From Bacteroidales bacterium (GTDB taxonomy: Bacteria; Bacteroidota; Bacteroidia; Bacteroidales; P3), in NCBI GenBank assembly GCA_017962615.1, contig JAGCUZ010000060.1:1-35833 (forward strand): a stretch of DNA of 35,833 nt, given 5' to 3'. The translations under genes and the position numbers were made by a program. The notes beneath the pieces were generated by a model. It searched no databases and had not been told where the DNA came from. It was given only the letters and a program-made list of their open reading frames with translations. Below are positions 12,474 through 28,177 of this stretch, piece by piece. Every line of letters starts with the position of its first letter. Within the stretch, counting starts at the first letter, position 1.

Positions 12474-12989
12474 ATGTCCTTCAACCTCGCCACATATCTG
12501 CGTCCCGAAGTAACCGCTCCCGCTGTAGCCAGTCTCTATCCGACGGGTGTCGCTGAGCACATGAAGGAACGGGTTCCGCTGAATTTGGTCTCCACCACCA
12601 ACGGAAAAATCCGCTTCGACTTTCCCTTAGACCCCGTGGTCAGCGTGCAGGGCAAGACCATCATCACCCGCCGCAACGTAGCCAAGGGCGGCACCATACA
12701 CGGCACCATAAAGGAGAGCTGGCGCGAGGATGATTGGACCGTATCCATAGCCGCCGTACTCACGTACGACACCGCCGACGAGCTCAATAACTCCATAGGC
12801 GCCCTGCGGCAGCTTTGCGAGAGCGGCGAAACCCTCAATGTAGAGAACCAGTGGCTTAACACTGCCTTTGGTATTACCCGCCTCGTGGTGGAGAGTTTAG
12901 ATTTCCAGCACACCAAAGGCCTCAACAACCAGACGGTGACCCTCACCTGCTACAGCGACGACAGTTACACCCTTCTCGAAGAGATTTGA
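12474..12989 (+). CDS. Phage tail protein, DUF6046-like
   Basis: The product is 171 residues. The middle reads IRFDFPLDPVVSVQGKTIITRRNVAKG, then GTIKESWREDDWTVSIAAVL. This is the pattern of the small Bacteroidetes-phage protein family DUF6046 (usually about 200 residues), thought to be tail or baseplate components. The C-terminal SLDFQHTKGLNNQTVTLTCYSDD also fits. It ends 2 bp before the hub gene and shares its GC-rich codon use. The DUF assignment is from memory of the pattern and could not be searched. Confidence 0.65.
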   Translation: MSFNLATYLRPEVTAPAVASLYPTGVAEHMKERVPLNLVSTTNGKIRFDFPLDPVVSVQGKTIITRRNVAKGGTIHGTIKESWREDDWTVSIAAVLTYDTADELNNSIGALRQLCESGETLNVENQWLNTAFGITRLVVESLDFQHTKGLNNQTVTLTCYSDDSYTLLEEI

Positions 12990-12991
12990 CC

Positions 12992-13951
12992 ATGTTCCGG
13001 CTAACCCACGACATAACCATCGGCAAATACCGCCTCAAGCTGGTCGACAGCGTAAGCATCAAATGCAGCGTCGAGACCCTGAGCGACACCGCCGTCATCA
13101 CCCTGCCCGGCAGCGTGATGAACGCCGCCCTCCAGATAGAGGGCAAGATAAACGTGGGCGACGCGGTGAGCATCCGTCTCGGCTACGACGGTGAGCTCAA
13201 AGAAGAATTCACCGGCTACGTGGAGAAAATCTCTACCAACGACGGCAGCCTGAAGATAGAGTGTCTCGACGCGCTCTACCTCTTCAAGAAGACCGCTATA
13301 AAGGATGCCCAACGCAAGGATATTACCCTCGCCGCACTGCTGCGGAAGGTGTGCGCCGAGGTGGACAGCAGTATCAAGGTGAACTGCGACTACAGCTTCA
13401 CCTACGACGACTTCGTAATCTACAAGGCCAACGGCTACGACGTGCTGAAGAAGGTGCACGAAGACACCAAGGCCGACATCTATTTTGCGGGCAACACGCT
13501 GCACGTGCACATGCCCTACACCCAGAACGCCGACACCACACCGGTGCGCTTCGACTTCAGCCGCAACATCGAGAAGAGCGACCTAACCTACCGCAAAGCT
13601 GAAGACATCAAGGTGGAGGTGGAAGTGAAAATCAAGACTCCTGATGGCAAAGAAAAGTCTATTACTCACGGCACCAGTGAAGGCGAGAAAATATCATTGA
13701 AATCCCCTTCCCAGAACGAGGCTGATGCAAAGAAGGTGGCTGAAGCCGAATACCGCCGCCGCTCGTTCGACGGCTACGAAGGCTCATTTACCGCATGGCT
13801 GATACCCCACGTGAAGCCTACCAGCACCGTGCACCTGCACGACAAAGACTACCCCACCAAAGACGGCAACTACTACGTTACCGGTACCGAAACCACATAC
13901 AGCAGTTCCGGCGGCGTAAGAAAAATAAAACTGGGAAGGAGAATATCGTAA
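12992..13951 (+). CDS. Phage baseplate hub protein (gpD / VgrG N-terminal type)
   Basis: The product is 319 residues from ATG 12992; a TTG two codons earlier is less likely. Segments GDAVSIRLGYDGELKEEFTGYVEKI and LKIECLDALYLFK, then LRKVCAEVD, IYKANGYDVLKKVHEDTKADIYF and EAEYRRRSFDGYEGSFTAWL follow the order of late-control gpD / phage-tail hub proteins. These form the trimeric hub on which the spike sits. C-terminal residues end in a beta-rich HLHDKDYPTKDGNYYVTGTETTYSSSGG. The gene follows the DUF6046-like gene. It ends 3 bp from the end of the convergent lipoprotein gene that separates it from the spike gene. Confidence 0.75.
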   Translation: MFRLTHDITIGKYRLKLVDSVSIKCSVETLSDTAVITLPGSVMNAALQIEGKINVGDAVSIRLGYDGELKEEFTGYVEKISTNDGSLKIECLDALYLFKKTAIKDAQRKDITLAALLRKVCAEVDSSIKVNCDYSFTYDDFVIYKANGYDVLKKVHEDTKADIYFAGNTLHVHMPYTQNADTTPVRFDFSRNIEKSDLTYRKAEDIKVEVEVKIKTPDGKEKSITHGTSEGEKISLKSPSQNEADAKKVAEAEYRRRSFDGYEGSFTAWLIPHVKPTSTVHLHDKDYPTKDGNYYVTGTETTYSSSGGVRKIKLGRRIS

Positions 13952-14416: not shown

Positions 14417-14887
14417 ATGGAAACCGCCACAGAAATAGCACGAATGTTCCGCAAACTGATACCCACGCGCGACATGCTCCACATTGCCAAGGTGGTGAAG
14501 GTGGATGGCGACGGGTGCACCGTCGACCTCGACGGCCTCCAGCTCGAAGGGGTGCGGCTGCGCGCCGTGGCCGACGGTTCCGACACCGGTCTGCTGCTCA
14601 CGCCCAAGGCTGGCAGCTACGTGCTGGTGGCCGACCTCTCGAACGGCGACCTGCGGCAGCTGGCCGTCATAGCCTACAGCGAAGTGGAGACCATCGAGAT
14701 ACACGGCGGCGACAAAGGCGGCCTCGTCAACATCAAGCAGCTCACCAACAAACTCAACAACCTCGTGCAGGCGTTCAACGAGCATACGCACAACTGCACC
14801 GCCGTGGGCTCCCCGACAGGCCCATCGCTGATGCAAACGCTGAGCTTCAACGCCTCCGACTACGAAGACACCACGATAAAACACTGA
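14417..14887 (+). CDS. Phage baseplate spike protein (gpV-like)
   Basis: The product is 156 residues. An OB-fold-like first part (IAKVVKVDGDGCTVDLDGLQLEGVRLRAV ... LLTPKAGSYVLVADL) is followed by the stalk. The C-terminal LVQAFNEHTHNC carries an HxH motif (EHTHNC), the iron-binding signature at the tip of phage P2 gpV / phi92-type spikes. It should sit on the hub encoded at 12992. It is now separated from the hub gene by the inserted moron. The genes normally next in a baseplate operon (gpW, gpJ, gpI types) are absent; the following DNA is non-coding, so the tail module is only a fragment. Confidence 0.7.
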   Translation: METATEIARMFRKLIPTRDMLHIAKVVKVDGDGCTVDLDGLQLEGVRLRAVADGSDTGLLLTPKAGSYVLVADLSNGDLRQLAVIAYSEVETIEIHGGDKGGLVNIKQLTNKLNNLVQAFNEHTHNCTAVGSPTGPSLMQTLSFNASDYEDTTIKH

Positions 14888-14911
14888 CCGCGTCAGCCAC
14901 GGAGGTTTTTT
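14884..14911 (+). terminator. Weak terminator candidate after the spike gene
   Basis: CTGAC (14884-14888) and GTCAG (14892-14896) form a small hairpin overlapping the spike stop codon. Nine bases and a run of six T (14906-14911) follow. The stem is short and not directly followed by the T run. Confidence 0.3.
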
Positions 14912-15023
14912 AGATGTGTTTTTATAGCGCATCCGACGAGGTCATTTTACCCCTTTTCCCACCCTGATTCGCCCCCTTTTTTCAACCCCGTTTCAACCGA
15001 AATATATGGTTCATTTAGAGAAG

Positions 15024-15074
15024 GTATATAGATGATAAGGAGTTGGTCCCACCAACTCCTTATCAACTATATAC
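15024..15074. repeat. Large inverted repeat with 3-nt loop
   Basis: The arms 15024-15047 and 15051-15074 pair at 23 of 24 positions around CCC, with core GATAAGGAGTTGGT / ACCAACTCCTTATC. The outer ten bases 15023-15032 (GGTATATAGA) also pair perfectly with 15088-15097 (TCTATATACC), which offers an alternative structure. There is no T tract, so a plain terminator is unlikely. The stretch 14912-15290 around it contains no convincing gene. Confidence 0.85.
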
Positions 15075-15290
15075 TTACGATTTACATTCTATATACCAAA
15101 CTCGGGGTGTTGAAGGATTTTGCGAACGACTGATTTTTGAACGATAAAGAAATGAACTACAATGTATTGCAACGGCAAGCAAATCAATTTTGACGTCGAA
15201 ACGCATTGTTGCCGTTTTGGCTATCGGGAACACAAAATCTTGACTGATTTCGGGCACCTGAAATCAAGTCGCACAAAAGGAGCCATATTT

Positions 15291-15434
15291 CGGAAAAGTG
15301 TAGTTTTTGACCATCGTTTTTATCGGAAAAGTGTAATTTGGGGCTATCGTTTTTATCGGAAAAGTGTATTTTTTGTTTGTGTATTTCATCGGAAAAGTGT
15401 ATTTTTGCAACACGAATTTTACAGGAAAAGTGTA
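15291..15434 (+). repeat. Five-copy array with 33-bp period (core GGAAAAGTGTA)
   Basis: CGGAAAAGTGTA begins at 15291, 15324, 15357 and 15390; a fifth copy (AGGAAAAGTGTA) begins at 15423. The spacing is exactly 33 bp each time. The bases before several cores are TTTTTATC and TTTCATC. The 21-bp intervals vary. The array ends 35 bp before the ATG of the lipoprotein at 15470, and copy 4 supplies the -7 box of its promoter. Confidence 0.9.
15376..15407 (+). promoter_or_regulatory. Promoter formed by the repeat array
   Basis: TTTG (15376-15379), a 20-bp spacer, then TATTTTTG (15400-15407), a full TAnnTTTG match. The other array copies have the same surroundings but are one base off the consensus, so only copy 4 makes a proper promoter. 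The leader to 15470 would be about 55 nt. Confidence 0.6.
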
Positions 15435-15469
15435 ATTACGCTATTCATAAAGACTGAAAATCAACGACT

Positions 15470-16009
15470 ATGAAAAACATTAGACAGTACATCATTGCCG
15501 GGGCGGTGTGCATGGCACTGGCGGGATGCGGGGGCAGGGGTGCCGAGGTGGCGATTGACAGCGCCTTGATGCATGAGATAGACCGCGCCATGGCCGACCT
15601 GCAAGAACTCATGCAGGATGAGTATTTTGAGTATTATCAACTTGGGGATTACTATTCATCGCTGGCAACGACGGCGGTGCTGGTTGACTTCAAAGTGTGG
15701 GAAGAAGACACCGTTGTGAACATTACACTCTTCGACACTACGATTCGCGATTATCCCGAGCCCGAGTATTTCGACTGCTTTAGGGCTGCCAACCGCGGGT
15801 ATGACATATACATATCCGACACGGCGCACCTGGGCATACTTTACAACGACCCTGTTGAGCAGAGGCAGACGTGCCGCAAAATGTGCGTGGGAATCTCCCG
15901 CATGTTCCTCTACCACAACGGCGAACTGATGGCAATGCCGTTGCCGCCCGACGACGATGAGGAAACAGAAGTGGATTTGGCAGAGACTGACTCCTACACA
16001 GACGATTAG
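15470..16009 (+). CDS. Lipoprotein of unknown function
   Basis: The product is 179 residues. The signal MKNIRQYIIAGAVCMALAGC has lipobox LAGC (Cys20). The mature protein is acidic, with a helical start (LMHEIDRAMADLQELMQDEYF), a beta-rich centre (VDFKVWEEDTVVNITLFDTT ... GYDIYISDTAHLGILY), two Cys (CRKMC) and an Asp/Glu-rich tail. No family recognised. It is monocistronic, with its own promoter in the 33-bp array and a strong terminator 40 bp after the stop. Confidence 0.8.
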   Translation: MKNIRQYIIAGAVCMALAGCGGRGAEVAIDSALMHEIDRAMADLQELMQDEYFEYYQLGDYYSSLATTAVLVDFKVWEEDTVVNITLFDTTIRDYPEPEYFDCFRAANRGYDIYISDTAHLGILYNDPVEQRQTCRKMCVGISRMFLYHNGELMAMPLPPDDDEETEVDLAETDSYTDD

Positions 16010-16048
16010 CCCGCCCGGAGGCATCCTCTCCGCAAAGCGGACAACGAC

Positions 16049-16074
16049 AACCCTCGGCATGGTCGCCGAGGGTT
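16049..16074 (+). terminator. Intrinsic terminator after the lipoprotein gene
   Basis: AACCCTCGGC (16049-16058) and GCCGAGGGTT (16065-16074) form a perfect 10-bp stem with a 6-nt loop, followed by ATTTGTTTGG, which is T-rich but interrupted. Confidence 0.75.
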
Positions 16075-16128
16075 ATTTGTTTGGATTTTGTCAAAATTTG
16101 GCAAATTATTTGTTTGGATTTTGTCAAA
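16073..16128. repeat. 23-bp direct repeat with 33-bp period
   Basis: The 23 bases at 16073-16095 (TTATTTGTTTGG ...) recur identically at 16106-16128, again exactly 33 bp apart. They lie between the terminator and the promoter of the next gene. Confidence 0.85.
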
Positions 16129-16177
16129 TTTTTTAAGAATAATATATTATTTATAATAATATGTCGGAGTTTTTTCG

Positions 16178-16185
16178 TATTTTTG
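16178..16185 (+). promoter_or_regulatory. -7 box for the gene at 16214
   Basis: TATTTTTG matches TAnnTTTG and is followed by CAG, as at many Bacteroidota promoters. No good -33 TTG is present at 19-21 bp. The leader would be about 25 nt. Confidence 0.45.
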
Positions 16186-16213
16186 CAGTTGCTTTCAAGG
16201 GCTGTGCCTGGAT

Positions 16214-17374
16214 ATGAAACGCTCGGAAACAAATATCAACCACAACGTTAACGCGCCGCGCCGCGACAGCCGCCATGCCGGAATGGCAAGGATTATGGCT
16301 GTGGTTGCAGCCGTTGTGCTCTTCACCGCCAAGGCCAACGCCCAAGACCTGCTGCGCCCTGAGGCTTGGTTCCCTTCTGAGTACATCATGACCTACAACC
16401 TTGCGTGTTATAACAAACTGGTGCACCAACGTGCGAACACGTTCTACATGTGCTATCCAGCGTTCTCGGCGGAGTATGCGCTTTCGGTTATGATTGACCA
16501 ATATTCCCCAAATAGCAACGGCAGGCTGGAGCTGAGGCGCGCCAAGGAGAACATCGGGTATCACGACGATTACCCGACTTTGGGCAAACGTAGACGGCAC
16601 AACAAATATGAGTCCGAGAAGCACAACGTGGAGGTAGAGACTTTCACGCTTGCCGTGAAGGGGGAGACGCTTAGGCTGATTGCCGCCCTGGTGAAGGCGT
16701 CCACCGAGACGGCCACGTATTTCAACGGTGAGCCTAATGGATGCGACGGCGTGACCTATATTTTCTACACTTACGGAATGGCTGGCAGGTTGGCAGGCCG
16801 CGCATGGTCGCCCAAGAAGGGCTGCCGCACACGGAGGCTTGTGGATGCGATGGACAGCATCTGCCTCGCTGTGCAGAAGGGCGACACGAATGTGCTGAAC
16901 CGCCAGATGCCACTGTGCCGCACTCTGCTCCACGAGTTCCGCCGCGAGTATCCGCCGAGGGCCTTCGAGCCGCAGACGGTGAAATATGGCTACGTCGACA
17001 GCACAGGGCATCACTATGTAAGAGAAGTGGGGACGGAGCAGGTAAAGGTGTGTCGCAGGTCCGACACATTGATGTCGGAGGAACAGTCCAATATGTGGAG
17101 CGCATCGATAGCGGGGCGCGTAGCCGCGCTGTCGCGGAAGCTGTTCCTTGGCGAGGGTACAGAACTTGTTAGAATCGTAATACAGATTGTGGAGAACGGG
17201 CCTACGCTATTCTTCAAAGACAACTATGGGTACTGCTATTTCTGCATGCCCACCACGGACGGCTTCGAGGAGCGCTGCCTGTCGGCCCCGCTGCAAAAGG
17301 ATGGGTGCTGGCATCTGGAGGAGGACGGGCAGTGGCACCAGGTGGATGCCGACGAAGCAAAGAAATGGTTTTAG
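16214..17374 (+). CDS. Secreted protein of unknown function
   Basis: The product is 386 residues. A basic N-terminus is followed by the hydrophobic stretch ARIMAVVAAVVLFTAKANAQ (about residues 25-44), a plausible type I signal with cleavage after ANA; an internal Met at residue 24 would give a shorter signal. The mature protein is mixed alpha/beta with many Tyr and Cys (FYMCYPAFSAEYALSVMI; YGYCYFCMPTTDGFEERC) and ends HLEEDGQWHQVDADEAKKWF. No family recognised. It is preceded by its own -7 box. An 8-bp tandem array separates it from sufB. The minus-strand frame 16151-17014 is a shadow. Confidence 0.75.
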   Translation: MKRSETNINHNVNAPRRDSRHAGMARIMAVVAAVVLFTAKANAQDLLRPEAWFPSEYIMTYNLACYNKLVHQRANTFYMCYPAFSAEYALSVMIDQYSPNSNGRLELRRAKENIGYHDDYPTLGKRRRHNKYESEKHNVEVETFTLAVKGETLRLIAALVKASTETATYFNGEPNGCDGVTYIFYTYGMAGRLAGRAWSPKKGCRTRRLVDAMDSICLAVQKGDTNVLNRQMPLCRTLLHEFRREYPPRAFEPQTVKYGYVDSTGHHYVREVGTEQVKVCRRSDTLMSEEQSNMWSASIAGRVAALSRKLFLGEGTELVRIVIQIVENGPTLFFKDNYGYCYFCMPTTDGFEERCLSAPLQKDGCWHLEEDGQWHQVDADEAKKWF

Positions 17375-19453: not shown

Positions 19454-19517
19454 CATATCTGCCGAAGGCTGCGAGTACCAACAAATAAAAAACACGGATA
19501 ACGAGCAACATATCAAC
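19454..19517 (+). repeat. 64-bp dispersed repeat, copy 1
   Basis: All 64 bases are identical to 22143-22206. It begins CATATCTGCCGAAGGCTGCG and ends ATATCAAC. It is preceded by a TTTTAAGT(A/G)GCTGACGC motif that recurs in other gaps. It sits between the lipocalin-like gene and the GWxTD gene. Confidence 0.95.
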
Positions 19518-19572
19518 TTATCAACAGATAACATATCAACTTATCAACGGATTAACATATCAACCTATCAAC
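19511..19572 (+). repeat. Six TATCAAC units upstream of the GWxTD gene
   Basis: TATCAAC begins at 19511, 19519, 19534, 19542, 19558 and 19566, in pairs 8 bp apart. The array ends 17 bp before the ATG at 19590. Confidence 0.9.
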
Positions 19573-19589
19573 GATTAAATCAACATAAC

Positions 19590-21149: not shown

Positions 21150-21227
21150 TTTTAAGTGGCTGACACGCCTATCATATCAACGTATCAACATCAAACATAT
21201 CAACATCAAACATATCAACCTATCAAC
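21150..21227 (+). repeat. TTTTAAGTGGCTGAC motif plus five TATCAAC units
   Basis: This gap repeats the TTTTAAGTGGCTGACRCGCC motif also seen near 22120. It then holds TATCAAC at 21175, 21183, 21198, 21213 and 21221, with a 15-bp higher-order period (CATATCAACATCAAA twice). It ends 7 bp before the ATG at 21235. Confidence 0.85.
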
Positions 21228-28100: not shown

Positions 28101-28148
28101 TTGATACGTTCAGGCGACAACAACATATCAACATATCAACATATCAAC
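28101..28148 (+). repeat. Intergenic repeat matching GH94 coding DNA, with three TATCAAC units
   Basis: The 24 bases 28101-28124 (TTGATACGTTCAGG ...) are identical to the minus strand at 31725-31702 inside the GH94 gene. The match continues to 35 of 37 positions. TATCAAC begins at 28126, 28134 and 28142, an exact 8-bp period. Confidence 0.9.
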
Positions 28149-28177
28149 AATCACGCATATGTTTTAACGTTGATTTC

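Follow-up and report, generated by a model that had tools for sequence, protein, structure and literature searches.

The 33-bp Array and the Promoter in Its Fourth Copy

The locus described here lies in a window of 35,833 nucleotides (the whole stretch of DNA that was analyzed), and comprises a tandem array of five copies of GGAAAAGTGTA with a 33-bp period (15291..15434, plus strand), in which conserved cores alternate with diverged spacers, a promoter inside the array, a short stretch that resembles the beginning of an ATPase gene, and a lipoprotein gene. The cores start at 15292, 15325, 15358, 15391, and 15424, all on the plus strand and exactly 33 bp apart; the recomputed coordinates agree with an earlier note on this DNA, which had described five cores at this spacing. 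GGAAAAGTGTA was not found elsewhere in the window on either strand, and Tandem Repeats Finder delimited the repeat at 15290-15434 (period 33, 4.4 copies, score 131). In the window's own assembly (2.0 Mb, 67% complete), CGGAAAAGTGTA occurs at four places, all within the window array (none for the reversed-pattern control), and the exact 11-mer GGAAAAGTGTA occurs outside the window at one place, C22:48628, inside a second array. A chance origin of the array was ruled out by the Tandem Repeats Finder score, the exact spacing, and the zero count of the reversed-pattern control. The core columns are the same in five of five copies, whereas pairwise comparison of the spacers in copies 1-4 shows differences at 43% of sites, indicating that the array is not a freshly slipped repeat, that its copies are old, and that the cores were preserved; near-identical units, as expected of a slippage-prone (phase-variable) repeat, are not found in it. 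Rfam returned six matches for 14880-16250, all below the gathering score and none on the array.

A promoter of the form TTTG-N20-TATTTTTG occupies 15376..15407 (plus strand), with TTTG at 15376 and the -7 box TATTTTTG at 15400. In promoters of the sigma-ABfr type the spacer between TTTG and TAnnTTTG ranges from N19 to N21, and TTTG-N19-21-TAnnTTTG is thus present at 15376-15407, in agreement with the statement of the earlier note that copy 4 contains a full TTTG-N20 promoter. Its companion statement, that the other copies miss the -7 consensus by one base, is correct for copies 1-3 and incorrect for copy 5, which is two bases off. The box at 15400 is the sole TAnnTTTG between 14900 and 16170 on the two strands searched, and its start precedes the last core by 24 bp, which places it in the penultimate copy. 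The last core (15424..15434, plus strand) lies downstream of the promoter and, judging from its position relative to the -7 box, is predicted to fall in the 5' untranslated region. The Bacteroidetes primary-sigma (sigma-ABfr) promoter is described, in the accessible part of the source, as TAnnTTTG at -7 with TTTG near -33 (PMC7366714); copy 4 resembles it in having both boxes with a 20-bp gap, and differs from it in that the -7 box lies inside a single unit of a phased array.

The Lipoprotein and Neighboring Genes

The first gene after the array (15470..16009, plus strand) encodes a lipoprotein of 179 aa with a signal peptide containing LAGC, for which no Pfam family was found. Relatives were found in 2 of the 98 other genomes of the genus that were searched (31% and 27% identity), and no GGAAAAGTGTA-type core is present within the 3.4-3.5 kb around each of them, suggesting that the array was probably not built for the lipoprotein; the idea that it represents a regulon of the lipoprotein is accordingly disfavored.

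Both relatives (in L293 and L294) directly follow ORFs that, presumably, correspond to RHS toxin C-termini, which they resemble, suggesting that the lipoprotein may be an orphan protein of the immunity type. Shortly upstream of the window array, at 12474-13951, there are genes resembling those of a phage-tail baseplate (DUF6046, phrog_5233, and the baseplate hub phrog_4930).

The Same Core in Other Genomes

We scanned a public species-genome collection (one genome per species) for two cores 7-37 bp apart and obtained at least 119 stretches; six further stretches matched in viral contigs. Among the matches listed, 80 records were labeled, of which about 66 belonged to Bacteroidota, mostly Bacteroidales, and most of the others to Clostridia or Bacilli (labels counted by eye). 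The spacings among the matches listed, with at most one mismatch per core, were 33 bp in 196 cases, 32 bp in 22, and other lengths in 26. From these matches we retained the 115 arrays spaced at 32-34 bp. The three viral ones among them have no ATPase: L152 (33 bp) and L154 (32 bp) each consist of a simple pair, and L157 has one 32-bp spacing among others.

Within 200 bp downstream of 69 of the 115 arrays among the matches listed there is an ORF with an ATPase motif of the GxRQxGK type (full length in 51 cases, truncated where the sequence stretch ends in 17, and short in 1). The remaining listed arrays are accompanied by ATPase similarity without such an ORF (13), lie at a contig edge (5), or show nothing by ORF or tblastn (28); the group of 13 includes two doubtful loci, L084, which is probably a P-loop match only, and L061, where the similarity begins 879 bp away. 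Two of the 28 (L078 and L101) show a start stub, and the other 26 are orphan arrays without a trace, which may have another origin. AAA_14 and DUF4143 were found in five of five checked ATPases behind the arrays, and four of four matched PDC-S01, a phage-defense candidate of PADLOC (best E-values 1e-171 to 1e-192). The earlier note had suggested looking for the same array elsewhere, and it is present in many genomes, in front of ATPase genes, which speaks against an array system special to the lipoprotein. The window array has the properties that define these PDC-S01 arrays (core GGAAAAGTGTA, at least two copies, 33/32-bp period); because no AAA_14-DUF4143 ORF follows it, we filed the window as an orphaned array and not as a complete module. 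As a single 12-mer, CGGAAAAGTGTA occurs in 22 of 61 genomes, its own included, and no second core was found beside it in relatives at the 13 forward-strand places among the matches listed.

Several loci in this set are worth describing individually. At L042, L047, L081, L102, L107, L110, and L141, the array is directly followed by similarity to the C-terminal part of the ATPase only, beginning at the last core itself in L141, and these loci look as if a deletion had started at the array and run into the ATPase gene. At L036, which was counted among the ATPase-less arrays, the gene behind the array belongs to ATPase_2 (PF01637) and has a LexA-type DNA-binding match that narrowly misses the cut-off; arrays of this kind may thus also occur with a second ATPase family. 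In L084 and L091, from two different MAGs, the same core occurs as a pair with 32-bp spacing, 68-69 bp upstream of a gene that we take, from its sequence, to be miaA-like. Elsewhere orphan arrays precede varied genes, and this gene, found twice, is the sole recurrence.

Arrays Upstream of DUF4143 ATPases Chosen by Protein

The association was also examined from the protein side. Our genus survey consisted of 124 loci (15 from the window's own assembly, 29 best hits per genome, and 80 of 81 further listed rows), weighted to strong DUF4143 scores, from which we excluded 8 without a usable ATPase start, 2 duplicates, and 4 with N or short upstreams. An upstream tandem array was found in 74 of the 110 genus DUF4143 ATPases, compared with 26 of 365 other genes and none of 550 dinucleotide shuffles. 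In the set before removal of the N-containing or short upstreams, 75 of 112 ATPases passed, with periods of 33 (29 loci), 32 (22), 23 (9), 22 (6), and other lengths (9); a 32- or 33-bp period was thus present in 51 of 112 genus ATPases versus 4 of 365 other genes. Across the order, the array score was passed by 8 of 27 best hits (one per genome; 27 of 29 loci usable), many of which are of the TGPRQSGK type and seemingly array-poor, and some DUF4143 subfamilies seem to be without arrays. Six genomes labeled as Clostridia, Bacilli, or similar, which had been reached through arrays of the same core, gave 17 passing loci of 24 usable (30 of 43 matches were taken). When the relatives of the L073 ATPase were chosen by protein, 17 of 28 usable loci passed (30 loci in all), and among the 6 relatives with at least 54% identity, 4 have GGAAAAGTGTA or close variants of it with 33-bp spacing; a different core is found in the remaining two, L355 and the window's own L359.

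The intact relatives usually have two to five core copies at 33/32 bp, a -7 box overlapping or following the last copies, and then the ATPase start. TAnnTTTG is found no more than 110 bp from the start in 64 of 68 arrays of the genus; the corresponding counts are 27 of 36 for ATPases without an array and 89 of 365 for other genes. The conserved columns of the genus arrays are modestly clustered (longest run, median 7 versus 5.3 expected; p <= 0.05 in 22 of 59).

Private Cores and Their Covariation with the Protein

The window's own assembly yielded 15 DUF4143 hits, and most of the listed upstreams show tandem arrays whose cores differ between paralogs, including ATTCCCTCATAAAAATGTA (32 bp), GGAAAAAGTTGTA (32 bp, five copies), TTCGGGAACAAAAAGTCCACAAG (23 bp), and GGGAAAGTATCTGACGTTTT (33 bp). 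None of the 15 hits in this 67%-complete assembly is preceded by an exact GGAAAAGTGTA array; the nearest cores are GGAAAAAGTTGTA (32 bp, L173), AAAAAAGTGTA/GGAAAAATGTA (L170), and AGAAAAGTGTA/GAAATAATGTA (L172). A second ATPase-less array is located at C22:48562-48638 (L181:5563-5639), with the cores GGAAAAGTGTC/GGAAAAGTGTC/GGAAAAGTGTA at 33 bp; it is followed by ATGCTATGTAAC, with no ATPase ORF behind it and no TAnnTTTG in its penultimate copy.

Core similarity and protein similarity were correlated among 99 array-bearing loci (Mantel rho 0.167; not reached in any of 999 permutations). The fraction of pairs with a strong core match was 0.04 for proteins less than 25% identical, 0.27 for those at 50-60%, and 0.86 for those above 80%. 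This correlation is partly shared ancestry, and the search with the L073 relatives, which were chosen by protein, is the cleaner test of core-protein pairing. When we asked which protein segments follow the core, in a set that also includes array-selected loci, the larger weights fell on the AAA and winged-helix-like segments at 20-65% identity, where the C-terminus has no weight, and on the winged-helix-like and C-terminal ones at 30-65%, so that either assignment is tentative. The winged-helix-like segment is, we assume, part of DUF4143. No relative of the array-associated ATPases was found in the PDB.

A Probable Stub of a Lost ATPase Gene

Between the last core and the lipoprotein gene, 15438..15467 (plus strand) is probably what is left of the beginning, ~10 codons, of an AAA_14-DUF4143 ATPase gene (TLFIKTENQR), with an altered start codon. 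Its nearest relative is the start of the ATPase gene of L073 (MLFRKIENQI), with which it shares 22 of 30 bases; true ATPase starts match their nearest fellow at 21-27 of 30. This identity to the L073 start is reached by 1 of the 35,803 plus-strand positions of the window and by 0 of 366 control upstream stretches, in which the maximum was 21. The position agrees as well, the stub and the L073 start each lying 14 bp after the last core, and 27 short-leader starts of the ML-x-RK type are located 10-19 bp after it, with one at 29. Changes affect both the start codon and the codon for an arginine that does not vary in an alignment of 25 ATPases. Scored with a cleaned start profile, the stub ranks second of 71,606 positions, behind a minus-strand place at 517, and scores 6.1 versus 20.4-36.0 for the intact starts from which the profile was built; we therefore note that our call rests on the identity count and the upstream controls, and not on the profile rank. 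Neither an ATPase ORF nor protein-level ATPase similarity was found in the window by ORFs and tblastn, and the 30-bp stub is the sole trace.

The position of the promoter matches too. Of the 36 related arrays whose last core is followed within 30 bp by the start of an ATPase-motif ORF, 23 have the -7 box at -24, in the penultimate copy, compared with 1 of 33 arrays with longer leaders; the window, with TAnnTTTG in the penultimate copy at exactly -24, falls in this short-leader class. There are also parallels for the presumed loss. L117 has an array, an ATPase stub of 28 aa, and another gene 142 bp on, and broken ATPase starts come right after the array in L035, L056, L078, and L101. Taken as a decayed remnant, the stub stands beside an array in which all 55 core bases are intact, which a plain relic need not show; under equal decay of cores and stub, a rough beta-binomial estimate gives this a probability of 0.002 (with a uniform prior and changes at 2 of 8 constrained stub sites).

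Origin of the Array and Alternative Explanations

We consider it likely that an AAA_14-DUF4143 (PDC-S01) ATPase-nuclease gene, since lost, had the window array as its promoter/operator array. What we observe directly is the array, the fact that such arrays go with these ATPases, the agreement in promoter position, and the stub-like sequence; from these we infer the loss of a once complete gene. Several findings weigh against this origin: ORFs and tblastn show no protein-level ATPase similarity in the window, the stub is short and scores low with the profile, 26 orphan arrays are without any ATPase trace, some DUF4143 subfamilies seem to be without arrays, the clustering of conserved columns is modest, the core-protein correlation is partly ancestral, and the five cores have stayed intact beside the stub. 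In the mechanism that we propose, the ATPase would bind its own private core cooperatively, via the winged-helix-like part of DUF4143, and would thereby repress its own promoter; the 32/33-bp phasing would place the cores on one face of the helix, so that several bound proteins could touch. Since the -7 box overlaps with the core in the penultimate copy, a protein bound to that core would block RNA polymerase. Autorepression by the encoded ATPase is our best guess, from position and covariation. In the window the ATPase gene would have decayed to about ten codons, and transcripts from the copy-4 promoter would then run into the lipoprotein gene, whose start lies 63 bp after the -7 box. The description in the earlier note of a regularly phased array with one good promoter is in our judgment right, and the cooperative regulator array that it offered as one possibility is probable.

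The array might instead still be in use, with an ATPase of the same specificity encoded elsewhere in the genome binding in trans and the lipoprotein belonging to its regulon. The five perfect cores beside a decayed stub, with the low probability estimated for them above, favor this explanation, and the matching ATPase could be missing from an assembly of this completeness. On the other hand, the exact 11-mer outside the window is confined to the orphan array on C22, none of the 15 DUF4143 hits follows an exact GGAAAAGTGTA array, the genes behind orphan arrays elsewhere are varied except for the miaA-like pair, and the two lipoprotein relatives have no core in their surroundings, and we regard it as unlikely. 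An explanation to which we give similarly little credence is that the array is bound by something else, or serves as a self-tag or target of the ATPase-nuclease and not as a transcriptional operator, its place at the promoter being secondary. It would suit the PD-(D/E)-X-K domain that PDC-S01 is said to carry in the accessible part of PMC12988326, the difference of cores between paralogs, and the 13 of 115 listed arrays beside ATPase similarity without a whole ORF (L061 and L084 being doubtful); against it, the -7 box is fixed at -24 in most short-leader arrays and lies within 110 bp of the start in nearly all genus arrays, as would be expected of an operator.

The lost-gene origin also has to be weighed against two explanations drawn from the repeat itself. 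The earlier note had proposed a slippage-prone promoter bank, in which copy number or one-base changes tune the lipoprotein, and the one-base distance of copies 1-3 to the -7 consensus agrees with it; we nevertheless hold it to be very improbable, since the spacers have diverged so far that the copies must be old, the related short-leader arrays mostly hold the -7 box in the same penultimate copy, and this type of array accompanies ATPase genes. The frame that it had read through the array as repeated FYRKSV is a real ORF (15162..15473, plus strand, 103 aa), which we judge not to be a gene. Such a frame is open in 49 of 95 exact-33 arrays elsewhere, a small excess over the 38.0 expected from spacer shuffles, as protein-coding repeats might show. 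The 22 spacings of 32 bp would break the frame, making coding unlikely, and together with the missing Pfam match for the 103-aa frame and the 32-, 22-, or 23-bp periods of other subfamilies they led us to reject a coding repeat, to which we attach next to no probability.

Relation to Known Systems

Phased operator and iteron arrays belong to self-regulating DNA-binding proteins. The arrays described here are similar to them in that tandem cores stand about two or three helical turns apart by the promoter of the presumed binder, and differ in that the cores vary between ATPase paralogs and the binding is putative. Defense genes are likewise held down by a repressor in the RptR-type defense islands, according to the accessible part of PMC12255303; there the repressor is a separate protein, whereas the presumed repressor here is the encoded ATPase itself. 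PDC-S01, the single-gene PADLOC candidate with AAA_14 and DUF4143, is presented in the accessible text of PMC12988326 as an ATPase fused to a PD-(D/E)-X-K domain and as the fourth most common defense across prokaryotes, validation being pending for most such candidates, and in that of PMC13356809 as the most frequent individual locus among rumen defense systems; upstream arrays are not mentioned in these parts of the two accounts. The checked ATPases behind our arrays all match this candidate, and the window differs in having no such gene, only the probable 10-codon stub. Among the papers listed by our searches of the PubMed Central literature, outside which most subscription papers and bioRxiv preprints lie, we found none on such arrays with PDC-S01 genes, judging by titles and the first lines of abstracts. 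Phased operators, the sigma-ABfr promoter, and PDC-S01 are known kinds, and the association of PDC-S01 with private arrays does not appear in the papers listed.

As a tentative generalization, which we would call possible rather than probable, PDC-S01 may not be a single-gene system: many copies would come with a private phased array that diversifies alongside the protein and forms a working part of the system (sensor, operator, or self-tag), and the array could outlive the gene, as here, handing its promoter to a neighbor. A private array before most of the sampled genus PDC-S01 genes (74 of 110) would give a handle on their control and perhaps on the target that is recognized. If this is true, each paralog predicts its own binding site, so that protein-DNA pairs are testable and swappable, gut Bacteroidales would hold natural orthogonal promoter-regulator pairs, and the arrays would be a mark for finding lost PDC-S01 copies.

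Other Repeats in the Window and Its Assembly

Short tandem repeats of the CAACATAT type recur in the window at 19506-19578, 21179-21219, and 28117-28153. A palindromic element, AAGGAGTTGGTnnnACCAACTCCTT, is located at 15037-15061, and 83 places in the assembly match it with at most three mismatches (0 for the reversed control). Further palindromes of the AAGGAGTTGGTnnnACCAACTCCTT type are found on C22, where one lies ~390 bp from the second orphan array, and on C5, C14, and C47, at roughly 250-320 bp from ATPase genes (distances by hand).
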